Shown: positions 13,742 through 20,497 of the stretch, in pieces
Position numbering within the stretch: the stretch's first letter is position 1
Layout: each line of letters begins with the position of its first letter
From: Caldifarciminota bacterium
Lineage (GTDB): Bacteria; Hydrothermota; UBA3073; JACQXS01; JAGMCI01
DNA length: 38,123 nucleotides
Assembly (NCBI GenBank): GCA_023129325.1
Contig: JAGMCI010000047.1
Coordinates: forward strand, 1 to 38,123
Direction: 5' to 3'
Program-made: the position numbers and the translations under genes
The notes under the pieces: model-generated
Told to the model about the DNA's origin: nothing
What the model saw: only the letters and a program-made list of their open reading frames with translations
Database searches by the model: none

Positions 13742-14992
13742 ATGAGATTTTTTGCTGACTTTCATATTCATTCAAAGTATTCAAGAGCCACATCCAAGGA
13801 AATGAGAATAAGTTCTATATCCAAAATGGCAAAGATTAAAGGGATAAAACTTATGGGAACAGGCGATTTTACACACCCTATCTGGCTTAAAGAACTCACG
13901 GAAGAGCTTGTGCCTGTTGATGGAAACCTTTTTTCCGCCAAAGACAGACCCGCCTCCAGCGGGGGAGACACATTTTTTGTACTCACAGTCGAAGTGAATA
14001 ATATATATAATAAAAATGGTAAATTGAGAAAAATACATAATTTAATATTTGTTCCTACGTTTAAAGATGTAGATAAAATTAATTCTTTTCTTGGAAGCTA
14101 CGGTAATTTAGCTTCTGATGGTAGGCCTATACTGGGACTTGATTCTGAAATTATGGTAAAAAGAATATTTGAACTTGTGCCTGATGCTTTTATTGTTCCT
14201 GCTCATATATGGACACCCTGGTTTGCATTATTTGGGTCACATTTTGGTTTTGATTCAATAGAAGAGTGTTTTGGTGATGAGACTGAGAATATCTTTGCTC
14301 TTGAGACTGGCTTATCATCAGACCCTCCAATGAATTGGAGGTGGTCAGCACTTGATAGATTTGCACTTATATCTAACTCTGATGCTCATTCTCCTAAAAA
14401 TATTGGCAGGGAGGTAAATTGCTTTGATTGTGAGCTTGATTATTTTAAAATTATAGATGCAATTAAGTTAAAAGACCCTGAGAAGTTTAAATTTACAATA
14501 GAATTTTTTCCTCAAGAAGGAAAATATCACTGGGATGGGCATCGGAAGTGTGAAGCAAGAATATCTCCAGAAGAAGCGATGGCAAATGATAATCTTTGCC
14601 CTAAATGTGGAAGACCAATTACAGTAGGGGTGATGCATCGCTTGATTTCTCTTTCTGATAGGAAGGAGCCAAAAGAAGGTAAAATTCCTTGTAAACACTT
14701 GATTCCTTTAGCTGAAATTATAAGTAATGCTATTGGGGTTGGCAAGGAGACAGAAAAAGTATTAAATGAATATAATAAGTTGATTTATCATTTTGGGACG
14801 GAATTTAATTGTTTATTAGAAATTCCTTATGATGAGTTAAAGAAAGCGACTTTACCCAAAATTGCTCAGGGTATTTGTAATGTAAGGGAAGAAAAAGTGA
14901 ATATTTTACCTGGATATGATGGAGTTTATGGGAAAATAAGTGTATTCACAGAAGAGCAAAAAGAAGAGAAACAACAATTAAATCTATTTTAA
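13742..14992 (+). CDS. Endonuclease Q-like PHP-domain nuclease
   Basis: 416 residues. PHP metal-site motifs: FADFHIHSKYS (His8, His10), GTGDFTHP, VPAHIWTPW, and SNSDAHSP near residue 220. A zinc-finger-like segment follows (CEARISPEEA...CPKCGRPITVGVMHR). This order is that of endonuclease Q (TIGR00375 family), which nicks DNA 5' of deaminated bases (uracil, hypoxanthine) and abasic sites; it is known mainly from Thermococcales and some bacteria. A role in repair of deaminated DNA fits a heat-exposed organism. A palindrome (13949-13963) encodes RPASSGGD in a loop before the conserved strand FFVLTVEVNNIY. The C-terminal 70 residues are lysine/glutamate rich. ATG 13742 starts right at the family N-terminus. 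Confidence 0.83.
   Translation: MRFFADFHIHSKYSRATSKEMRISSISKMAKIKGIKLMGTGDFTHPIWLKELTEELVPVDGNLFSAKDRPASSGGDTFFVLTVEVNNIYNKNGKLRKIHNLIFVPTFKDVDKINSFLGSYGNLASDGRPILGLDSEIMVKRIFELVPDAFIVPAHIWTPWFALFGSHFGFDSIEECFGDETENIFALETGLSSDPPMNWRWSALDRFALISNSDAHSPKNIGREVNCFDCELDYFKIIDAIKLKDPEKFKFTIEFFPQEGKYHWDGHRKCEARISPEEAMANDNLCPKCGRPITVGVMHRLISLSDRKEPKEGKIPCKHLIPLAEIISNAIGVGKETEKVLNEYNKLIYHFGTEFNCLLEIPYDELKKATLPKIAQGICNVREEKVNILPGYDGVYGKISVFTEEQKEEKQQLNLF
13949..13963. repeat. Palindromic element inserted in frame in the EndoQ-like gene
   Basis: CCCGCCTCCAGCGGG, the same general element type as in the kelch gene, encodes PASSG at about residues 70-75 in a loop. Confidence 0.55.
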
Positions 14993-15008: not shown

Positions 15009-15036
15009 TTGCATTTTTGGGGTTTCGTGATATAGT
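15009..15036 (+). promoter_or_regulatory. Promoter of the RNase HIII-HIT gene; predicted leaderless start
   Basis: TTGCAT (15009-15014), 16-base spacer, TATAGT (15031-15036), then seven bases to ATG 15044. Confidence 0.55.
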
Positions 15037-15043
15037 TTTCAAG

Positions 15044-16183
15044 ATGAATTCTTGGATTGGAACAGATGAGTCGGGAAAAGGAGATTATTTTGGTGGGCTT
15101 GTAATAGCTGGTGTGATGGTTGACGAACATACAGAACCAAAACTAATTGAACTTGGAGTTAAAGATTCAAAAAAATTATCTGATAGTAAAGTTAAATTAT
15201 TAAGTAAAGAAGTTCAAAAAATATGCCCTCATTCTGTGGTTATGATTGGTCCCGAAAAGTATAACGAACTTTACTCTAAACTCCATAATCTAAATCATAT
15301 TCTTGCATGGGGACATGCACGAGTGATTGAAAATTTGCTTAAAAAAGTAAATTGTGAGCTTGTTATAACAGACCAATTTGGGGATAAAAAATATATTGAA
15401 AATGCTTTAATGAAAAGGGGCAAACAAGTAAAACTTGAACAGTATCCAAAGGCAGAAAACAATTTAGCGGTTGCGGCTGCTTCAGTGCTTGCAAGGGATA
15501 AGTTTCTTGATGGGCTTTCAAAAATTTCAGCACAAATTAAAGTTTCATTGCCCAAGGGAGCATCTGAGAAGGTAGAGCAAGTTGCCAAAGATTTAGTGGG
15601 CAATTATGGCAATACCATACTTAATGAAATTGCTAAAGTTCATTTTAAAACAACCAATAAGATTAACGAACAGAGTTACCCTGCCCTCACAGTTTCTGAT
15701 TCAAAAAGATTATGGGCTCCTTGGAGGGCAGAATATATTTATTCTCCTCAACCAGAAAAGTGTATATTTTGTGAGGCTCTTGCAAAAAAGAATGATGAAT
15801 CTTATCTTTTATATCGTGGTTCAAAGTCATTTGTGATGATAAATCTCTTTCCCTATAATAATGGGCATCTTATGGTTGCGCCTTATAGACATATAGCAGA
15901 TACTGAAAAGCTTACTTCCGAAGAAATTTCTTCAATAGTAGAACTTATTAAAAAATCTATAAAAGCTTTAAACACTACTATGAATCCTGCTGGTTTTAAT
16001 ATAGGGATGAATATTGGAGCTATTGCAGGTGCAGGGGTGCGCGACCATATTCATATACATATAGTCCCAAGATGGACAGGAGATACGAACTTTATGCCAG
16101 TAATATCTGATACAAAGATAATATCTCAATCCATTGAGGAATGTTATAAGTTATTGAAAAAAGCATTTGACAAGAATGTGTAA
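15044..16183 (+). CDS. rnhC: Ribonuclease HIII fused to a HIT-family nucleotide hydrolase/phosphorylase
   Basis: 379 residues, two enzymes in one frame. Residues 1-205 are an RNase HII/HIII catalytic core: GTDESGKGDYFGG gives Asp8 and Glu9, ITDQFGD gives Asp110, and NNLAVAAASVLARD follows. Gly-Lys-Gly and Asp-Glu are the HIII form. The N-terminal substrate-binding domain of typical HIII (about 80 residues) is missing. Residues 222-379 are a HIT domain that begins with RLWAPWRAEYI and CIFC (240-243), as in Ap4A phosphorylase-like HIT proteins, and has the HIHIH active site at 335-339 (DHIHIHIVPRW). The join (about 205-222) is short and smooth. RNase HIII removes RNA from RNA-DNA hybrids; HIT enzymes cleave dinucleoside polyphosphates or adenylates. 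An open TTG 27 bases upstream is rejected because of the promoter. Confidence 0.85.
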   Translation: MNSWIGTDESGKGDYFGGLVIAGVMVDEHTEPKLIELGVKDSKKLSDSKVKLLSKEVQKICPHSVVMIGPEKYNELYSKLHNLNHILAWGHARVIENLLKKVNCELVITDQFGDKKYIENALMKRGKQVKLEQYPKAENNLAVAAASVLARDKFLDGLSKISAQIKVSLPKGASEKVEQVAKDLVGNYGNTILNEIAKVHFKTTNKINEQSYPALTVSDSKRLWAPWRAEYIYSPQPEKCIFCEALAKKNDESYLLYRGSKSFVMINLFPYNNGHLMVAPYRHIADTEKLTSEEISSIVELIKKSIKALNTTMNPAGFNIGMNIGAIAGAGVRDHIHIHIVPRWTGDTNFMPVISDTKIISQSIEECYKLLKKAFDKNV

Positions 16184-16213: not shown

Positions 16214-16624
16214 ATGCAGTGGAAATCGCAGCCGTGTAAAGAGCACCCAAGAAAAACAATTCTTTTAATTATCTTTCTTGTGGCACTTGGTATTGGGATA
16301 TATTTTTCTTTTAGCTGGTATTGGGTTATTATTGCATATATTCTTGTTGGAGGAGGAATTTTACCTTATTTTTTACCTACATATTATTCTTTAGAGAATG
16401 AAGGAATGACAATAAAAGGAATTGTGATTGAAAAGAAAAAGCAATGGGAAGATTTCAAGACATATTATAAGGATAAGAACGGTGTGCTCTTATCTCCATT
16501 TGATAAGCCATCAAGGCTTGAAAACTTTAGAGGAACTTATATCAGATTTAACGATAACGAAAAGGAAGTAATAGATTTTATATCAACAAGAATTGAAGAA
16601 CCACAGAGAACACAGAGTCCATAA
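16214..16624 (+). CDS. Small membrane protein of unknown function, PH-like C-terminal half
   Basis: 136 residues. Two hydrophobic segments (TILLIIFLVALGIGIYFSF and VIIAYILVGGGILPYFL, about 15-55) precede a soluble part, TYYSLENEGMTIKG...WEDFKTYYKDKNGVLLS, which resembles bacterial PH-like membrane proteins (YcxB/DUF type). I cannot name the family firmly. It follows the rnhC fusion by 30 bases. The last eight residues (EPQRTQSP) are encoded by the dispersed GAACCACAGAGAACACAGAG repeat, so the original stop was probably lost or overwritten. Confidence 0.55.
   Translation: MQWKSQPCKEHPRKTILLIIFLVALGIGIYFSFSWYWVIIAYILVGGGILPYFLPTYYSLENEGMTIKGIVIEKKKQWEDFKTYYKDKNGVLLSPFDKPSRLENFRGTYIRFNDNEKEVIDFISTRIEEPQRTQSP
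16600..16622. repeat. CCACAGAG-type repeat overlapping a gene end
   Basis: ACCACAGAGAACACAGAG is the half-arm word of the dispersed element. It encodes the C-terminal tail of the small membrane protein and lies 20 bases before the ribD promoter (TTGACA at 16638). Confidence 0.6.
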
Positions 16625-19181: not shown

Positions 19182-19197
19182 CCCTATCTTTATAGGG
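19182..19197. terminator. Small hairpin at a convergent gene end
   Basis: CCCTAT-CTTT-ATAGGG spans the stop codon of the minus-strand gene. There is no clear T-run, so termination is only suggested. Confidence 0.35.
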
Positions 19198-20497
19198 TGT
19201 CATTCTTTAAAATATACAACCGTTTTATTGATTCCACATTTGTTAATATTCCTAAGATTATCAAAGTATAAAATATTTGATTAAATAATGCTCCTATCAT
19301 GATTAAAAATAATCTTATATCCCTTCCAACCCTTATTTTAAATTTCTTTTTAAAAACATTATCATATTTGTCCGCAGTATAACTATTCATAAAACTTCCA
19401 ATAAGTGCAATAAAACTTACAATCCATATCCCAATATTGTGGTGTAAATTCCAATATCCATATGCCATTCCAAAAATGATTAAAGCATCAACATATCTAT
19501 CAAGTACTGCATCAAACCATGCTCCATAACTTGATTCTTGGGATTTTAGCCTTGCAATTTCGCCGTCACATCCATCAATAATTGAGGAGAATTGAGCCAG
19601 TAATCCACCAATAATAATATGTAAATAATTCCCTAAACAAAAAAAGAAAACAGATAGCATTCCGATAATAAAACTCATAAATGAAATCAAATTTGGTTTT
19701 ATCTTAGTTTTTAATAAAAGTTTTGATATCCTTATAGAGATTTGTCTATTCAATAACTTGGATATTGGTCCATCGGTTGGTTTTATTAATCTTTTACACA
19801 ATATCTTTTCAGCTTTTCTGTAATTATCTTTTGTATCAATATCAATCCAAAAGTTCTCCTTAATATCAAAAGCTTTTATTTTTTCTTTTTTCGCAAGAAC
19901 TCTTATTCCTCCGGATAATGTTTCATTTCCATTTTTGATACTTTCCTCCAATGCTTCAAATATAGCAGGTGACAATAAGAATATTCCACAATCAATACCA
20001 TTGTAATTATCTATTTTTTTACCAATATCTACTATGTAACCATTCTCTATTTTGACTTTGGTTGCTTCGTCTAAACCAATGTGCCTTTTTAACATTTTAT
20101 CAACCGCTAACGCACATTCATTGTTATCTAATCTTATTCTTTTCAATTCACTTAATATTTTTGGTTCAAAAATATGGTCAGCCATCAATAAAATAAATTT
20201 TCCATTAAGCAATTCTTTAGCCTTTAAAACAGAGACCCCATTTCCTTTTTCCCATTCCATATTTTCAATATAAGTTATTTTCACCCCATACCTATCCCCA
20301 TTGCCTAACTTCTTTTTTATCTTTTCTCCAAGGTGCCCAACAACTATTATAAACTCGTTAGTACCAGATTGTTTTGCAGTTAATATCACTCTTTCAATTA
20401 AAAATAAGCCTAAAAGTTGAATTAAGGGCTTGGGTTCATTTTTGGTTAAGCTTTTGATTCTACTGCCTTTTCCAGCAGCAATTATTAAAGCTTTCAT
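19190..20497 (-). CDS. Bifunctional inositol-1-phosphate cytidylyltransferase / CDP-alcohol phosphotransferase (DIPP synthase-like)
   Basis: 435 residues. Residues 1-235 are a nucleotidyltransferase (ALIIAAGKGSRIKSLTKNEP, KPLIQLLG, LLMADHIFEP, DIDTKDNY). Residues 240-435 carry several membrane helices and the CDP-alcohol transferase signature DGCDGEIARL...GAWFDAVLDRYVDA. This pairing is the bifunctional IPC transferase/DIPP synthase of Archaeoglobus and some thermophilic bacteria. It makes CDP-inositol and couples it to inositol-1-phosphate, giving the phosphorylated precursor of di-myo-inositol phosphate, a heat-stress solute. A role in an inositol-type lipid is the main alternative. The inositol-phosphate synthase and the phosphatase are not in the window. 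TATAAGG precedes the start, and TATAAT lies about 45 bases upstream. Confidence 0.78.
   Translation of the reverse strand: MKALIIAAGKGSRIKSLTKNEPKPLIQLLGLFLIERVILTAKQSGTNEFIIVVGHLGEKIKKKLGNGDRYGVKITYIENMEWEKGNGVSVLKAKELLNGKFILLMADHIFEPKILSELKRIRLDNNECALAVDKMLKRHIGLDEATKVKIENGYIVDIGKKIDNYNGIDCGIFLLSPAIFEALEESIKNGNETLSGGIRVLAKKEKIKAFDIKENFWIDIDTKDNYRKAEKILCKRLIKPTDGPISKLLNRQISIRISKLLLKTKIKPNLISFMSFIIGMLSVFFFCLGNYLHIIIGGLLAQFSSIIDGCDGEIARLKSQESSYGAWFDAVLDRYVDALIIFGMAYGYWNLHHNIGIWIVSFIALIGSFMNSYTADKYDNVFKKKFKIRVGRDIRLFLIMIGALFNQIFYTLIILGILTNVESIKRLYILKNDTL

Follow-up and report, generated by a model that had tools for sequence, protein, structure and literature searches.

A fusion of an RNase HIII catalytic core with a HIT domain, conserved in five families of one class of Hydrothermota

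A single uninterrupted reading frame from a Caldifarciminota bacterium (phylum Hydrothermota) encodes the catalytic core of ribonuclease (RNase) HIII followed by a HIT domain, and the fusion is genuine, since the joined frame recurs in ten genomes of five families. It is a conserved and apparently undescribed protein built from known parts: a literature search found no paper in which RNase HIII and a HIT domain are both mentioned, in line with the preliminary description of this DNA, which knew of no report of such a fusion. Also new here are the position of endonuclease Q (EndoQ) directly upstream both of the fusion and of standalone HIT genes, a class without detected RNase HI, and a fusion of RNase HII with a Clp1-type domain. 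The reading that we tentatively favour is that of a bifunctional nick-processing enzyme, in which the HIT domain would remove 5'-adenylates, a role like that of aprataxin for a protein that is not an aprataxin.

Architecture of the Fused Protein

The fused gene and its two neighbours lie on the forward strand of the window, that is, the whole stretch of 38,123 nucleotides that was analysed:

13742..14992, + strand: EndoQ homologue of 416 aa, directly upstream of the fusion, matching PfuEndoQ (5zb8) and ending in QLNLF
15044..16183, + strand: RNase HIII-HIT fusion gene, 379 aa
15050..15658, + strand: RNase HIII catalytic core, residues 3-205, matching TIGR00716 and aligned to 4py5, 3asm and 2d0a
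15659..15703, + strand: linker, residues 206-220, delimited by the alignment of ten fused proteins and varying in length and sequence among relatives
15704..16171, + strand: HIT domain, residues 221-376, with Pfam PF01230, 6af2/3ano as nearest solved structures, and invariant columns
16214..16624, + strand: W11, a small conserved protein of 136 aa with a hydrophobic N-terminal stretch, adjoining HIT in many relatives

Besides the ATG at 15044, a TTG at 15017 offers an alternative in-frame start of the fused gene. The Pfam family RNase_HII is matched by residues 5-204 of the protein with 121 bits (cut-off 25.8) and the HIT family (PF01230) by residues 250-343 with 53.4 bits (cut-off 21.5), while the NCBIfam model of RNase HIII (rnhC, TIGR00716) scores 209.4 bits against a cut-off of 161.2 and the HII models score under their cut-offs. 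The TIGR00716 match spans model positions 82-284 only and, because it starts at position 82, the N-terminal TBP-like domain of RNase HIII is absent; judged by its sequence, the nuclease half is the catalytic core alone. Residues D8, E9, D110 and E138 of this half, together with GKG, align with the solved RNases H3 4py5 and 3asm, the four acids being the counterparts in the alignment of Asp78, Glu79, Asp180 and Glu206, the catalytic acids of the Thermovibrio enzyme (PMC4132731). In the HIT half, HIHIH (H335/H337/H339) and CIFC (C240/C243) are invariant among 36 aligned relatives, and the protein ends at residue 379, right past this domain. The preliminary description had claimed precisely such a pairing of an RNase HIII core without its N-terminal domain and a complete HIT domain, which is borne out by the profile matches and the motifs and is conserved.

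Compared with the known RNases HIII (rnhC) of Bacillus stearothermophilus (2d0a/3asm) and Thermovibrio ammonificans (4py5), the fused protein has the same D/E/D/E and GXG core but lacks the N-terminal TBP-like domain and carries a HIT domain at its C-terminus. No other gene of the genome carries either domain, and the remaining RNase H there is RNase HII. An AlphaFold2 model of the protein (pLDDT 58.7) is usable for the HIT half; the shallow alignment left the HIII half at low confidence, so that no domain interface can be read from it.

Distribution Among Relatives

A search of 147 genomes of the phylum, of the kind proposed in the preliminary description, revealed both domains in a single open frame in ten genomes, the window's own included, which belong to five families of the same class (G000 and G001 of family f1; G005, G007 and G008 of f2; G003 and G006 of f3; G004 of f4; G010 and G012 of f6). 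The fused gene of G004 is the same gene as on contig JAUWAR010000065.1. The linkers range from about 10 residues in f6 to about 70 in f3, where they are rich in Pro, Gln and Ser, and the identity of the window's protein to those of f6 is about 50%. The fused proteins have kept the four DEDE acids in HIII and the HxHxH and CxxC motifs in HIT, with the exception of the HIII start in G005, and the N-terminal HIII domain is missing in all of them. In the HIII tree, a weakly supported branch (68/78) separates all the fused sequences and that of G002 from the rest.

Close relatives with two separate genes and a stop codon near residue 205 had been named in advance as the sign of an assembly error. 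This arrangement is found in G002 (f2) alone, where HIII and HIT occupy adjacent frames and the junction reads GGAGGG-TAA-ATATG, with a stop, an SD-like site and an ATG, which looks like genuine translational coupling. In family f5, the HIII and HIT genes are separate and unlinked, and the HIII frames (204-222 aa) are likewise without the N-domain. Assembly error as a general explanation is thus ruled out by the ten joined frames in five families.

Two of the genes show local damage. In G002 (L143, 7470-7990), a small deletion puts HIT out of frame at the GDTNFMP motif, near the catalytic region, through either decay or a sequencing error. The fused gene of G005 (L146, 8050-8190) has lost the first 40 HIII residues, including the catalytic DE pair, and has unrelated sequence upstream; either recombination or misassembly would account for this 5' loss.

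Outside the class, no fusion was found in the 147 genomes of the phylum, nor in the other 79 of the best 80 of 352 relatives. An apparent fusion from Dehalococcoidia (L034) was rejected, because the HIT gene there stands alone and the gene before it resembles that of an RNA polymerase sigma factor.

Relationships of the HIT Domain

In a profile search of solved HIT proteins, the nearest were Ap4A phosphorylases, with 169 and 166 bits, followed by the next HIT protein with 75 and by aprataxin with about 20. A fold search agreed, its top matches being the Rv2613c-type Ap4A phosphorylase (6af2/3ano). Aprataxin is among the weakest HIT matches of the family profile (E of about 0.003-0.04). The likeness to the Rv2613c-type enzymes (3ano, 6af2, 3wo5) extends over the full length, including the RLWxPxR start and the HxHxHxVPRWxGDxNF motif; the HIT domain of the fusion differs from Rv2613c in having a CxxC pair, which is absent in the aligned stretch of the latter, a Gly in place of Ser147, and a nuclease as partner. 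In fact, Ser147 of Rv2613c, located through the S147Q entry 3wo5, corresponds to Gly331 of the fusion, a Gly that is invariant in 36 relatives, and phosphorylase activity can therefore not be assumed for the HIT half. Neither this activity nor a deadenylase activity is assignable to it by residue.

With aprataxin/Hnt3, the fused protein shares the HIT fold and the proposed role at 5' ends generated by RNase H or ligase, but its HIT domain is not followed by the C-terminal C2HE zinc finger of aprataxin, the ligands of which have been described (PMC4499129), and its partner is a nuclease. Nit-Fhit (1ems) is likewise a natural HIT fusion, but with a nitrilase as partner and a HIT domain of the Fhit type.

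Nearly all the 147 genomes of the phylum have a HIT gene, which also occurs standalone widely in bacteria and archaea with mixed neighbours; outside the EndoQ-linked families, these are mostly unrelated to repair. A comparison of fused or EndoQ-linked HIT proteins with unlinked ones gave no convincing active-site difference. An apparent difference at T345 was discounted, being biased by the search pattern WTGDTNFM.

EndoQ and the History of the Locus

The gene directly upstream of the fusion encodes a separate protein, which is like PfuEndoQ (5zb8, 7k30-33) over its full length; the match to 5zb8 has E=8.9e-61 over residues 5-414, with the zinc/catalytic residues E76, H84 and H139 aligned. EndoQ leaves a nick 5' of the lesion with ligatable 5'-phosphate and 3'-OH ends (PMC4357722). 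Whereas archaeal EndoQ uses a PCNA-binding motif, most copies of the phylum end in QLxLF, like motifs that bind the bacterial clamp. More generally, the EndoQ proteins of the phylum (window 13742-14992; L030, L031, L142, L167-L221) mostly bear a C-terminal Q-[LMQK]-x-L-F, which the copies of family f14 are without, and this ending would be a typical bacterial sliding-clamp-binding motif.

EndoQ lies immediately upstream of a standalone HIT gene, on the same strand, at 31 loci in 10 other families of the phylum; the gaps that were measured span -1 to 144 nt, and the two genes stand in an operon-like arrangement. In many of these loci, HIT is followed by W11, for which no Pfam match was found. 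The order EndoQ, HIII-HIT, W11 is seen in the window and in G001; family f1 is the one in which EndoQ still adjoins the fused gene, with an extra opposite-strand ORF between in G001, and in families f2-f6 EndoQ is found away from it. A tree of HIT proteins places the class (fused proteins and f5) inside a group whose other members are all EndoQ-linked families, with an SH-aLRT of 92. Most simply, the locus would have started out as EndoQ-HIT-W11, and an ancestor of the class would have gained RNase HIII at the 5' end of HIT.

Other RNases H of the Class

None of the 16 genomes of the class gave a match to RNase HI (PF00075), as is usual where HIII occurs, and 12 of 14 other genomes of the phylum that were searched have it. 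With RNase HI undetected, HIII is likely the hybrid-degrading enzyme and probably carries this role in the class; the same role has been proposed for RNase HIII in general (PMC1950709).

In families f1, f2, f3 and f5, RNase HII in turn runs on into a CLP1_P domain (PF16575), which scores 108 bits in the window's genome. Copies outside f3 include:

L002 763-1965 (contig C57, window's genome), - strand: RNase HII-CLP1_P fusion, PF16575
L224-L227, L229-L232 and L235 (families f1, f2 and f5): RNase HII-CLP1_P fusions

The copies of f3 (L237, L238) have lost the P-loop (Walker A motif), that of G005 is truncated, and the RNase HII of f4 and f6 has no CLP1_P domain. Proteins of the Clp1 family are 5'-OH polynucleotide kinases (PMC6777427), and the kinase domain on RNase HII is a possible second 5'-end enzyme. 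A literature search found no paper joining Clp1, polynucleotide kinase and RNase HII, and a large survey of the Clp1 family is silent on RNase H.

Possible Functions of the Fusion

The nicks of type 2 RNases H fall on the 5' side of ribonucleotides, and bacterial ligases too adenylate 5' ends. To our knowledge, bacteria have no assigned counterpart of aprataxin, and a literature search for one gave nothing relevant. In eukaryotes, the HIT enzyme aprataxin takes the AMP off adenylated 5' ends, its accepted substrates (PMC4499129). The HIT domain described here is joined to one nicking enzyme and stands in an operon-like arrangement with another, and 5'-adenylate removal is favoured because the nicks made by EndoQ and RNase H leave ends that a ligase may try to seal. 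The architecture, conservation and neighbourhood come from the sequences, and from them we infer substrate and chemistry. The RNase HIII half would remove RNA from RNA:DNA hybrids (primers, R-loops), replacing the undetected RNase HI. RNase H and EndoQ would nick 5' of an aberrant nucleotide, a ribonucleotide or a deaminated or abasic base, respectively, leaving 3'-OH and 5'-phosphate, and DNA ligase could stall on such nicks after transferring AMP to the 5'-phosphate. The tethered HIT domain would then strip the adenylyl group, converting A-5'pp5'-RNA/DNA into a 5'-phosphate by hydrolysis or phosphorolysis, and excision could resume. Phosphorolysis (AppDNA + Pi -> ADP + pDNA) seems as possible as hydrolysis, because the closest characterised HIT relatives are phosphorylases. 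The flexible linker would merely hold the HIT domain at the nick.

For this role speak the fusion in ten genomes, the conserved residues, the linkage to EndoQ, the HIT tree, the lack of detected RNase HI and the RNase HII-CLP1_P fusion. Against it stand the Ap4A phosphorylases as nearest relatives, the missing zinc finger, the mixed neighbours, the lack of an active-site marker, the separation of EndoQ in f2-f6 and the varied linkers, which do not point to a rigid active site common to both halves. The idea of the preliminary description, that RNA removal is linked to the clean-up of adenylated ends, is accordingly upheld in part: the EndoQ-HIT arrangement and the fusion of RNase HII with a kinase-like domain lend it indirect support, while its parallel with aprataxin is weakened by the proximity of the HIT half to the Mycobacterium Ap4A phosphorylase and by the lack of the aprataxin zinc finger.

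The same proximity, in sequence and fold, to the Rv2613c-type enzyme leaves room for the rather unlikely alternative that the HIT half still does housekeeping work on dinucleoside polyphosphates, as an Ap4A phosphorylase or hydrolase, and was joined for co-expression or for local clearance of Ap4A, with nucleic-acid ends left untouched. Such a function would suit a domain that is near-universal in the 147 genomes of the phylum and widespread as a standalone protein with mixed neighbours, and Ap4A is a by-product of tRNA synthetases and of ligases, of which DNA ligases make it in side reactions (PMC7705103). However, the Gly in place of Ser147 of Rv2613c argues against it, and two links to nucleases, the EndoQ operon and the RNase HIII fusion, are unexpected for plain nucleotide clean-up. 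A near-neutral fusion of neighbouring genes that kept unrelated roles, with no mechanistic meaning in the join, would be in keeping with the variable length and sequence of the linkers, the separate but coupled genes of G002 and the unlinked genes of f5. This is improbable, given that the fusion has been retained in five families over a large divergence, that HIII sits exactly between EndoQ and HIT in f1, and that a second fusion of a type 2 RNase H occurs in the same class.

It is quite improbable that the HIT domain, which in HIT proteins forms dimers or tetramers, has a structural role, multimerising the HIII core and substituting for the missing N-terminal substrate-binding domain. The N-domain of RNase H3 does aid substrate binding (PMC4132731), and it is gone from all the fused proteins; yet the HIII of f5 is without both N-domain and HIT, so that HIT is not required to make up for the loss, and the HIT catalytic residues remain invariant. 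Very remote is the idea that the HIT half takes NpnN- or NAD-type 5' caps off the RNA of hybrids, be it a primer or an R-loop, and leaves the body of that RNA to HIII. The chemistry fits HIT enzymes, some of which degrade capped RNA fragments (PMC7705103), but the linkage to EndoQ, which concerns damaged DNA bases, is left unexplained.

Returning to 5'-adenylate removal, a broader and more speculative possibility is that bacteria have a module for nick repair, where a HIT protein other than aprataxin would deadenylate the nicks made at ribonucleotides (HIII) and at deaminated or abasic sites (EndoQ), with the Clp1-type kinase on RNase HII as a second healing enzyme, in convergence with eukaryotic aprataxin and PNKP. 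The HIII-HIT tether, the EndoQ-HIT link and the RNase HII-kinase fusion together make up a candidate system for 5'-end clean-up in the repair of ribonucleotides and deaminated bases in bacteria. Should the HIT half prove to be an Ap4A enzyme, the fusion would still suggest that dinucleotide metabolism and the repair of DNA nicks are connected.

Elsewhere in the window, on the reverse strand (19190-20497), a frame of 435 aa resembles, by eye, a fusion of a nucleotidyltransferase with a CDP-alcohol phosphatidyltransferase.
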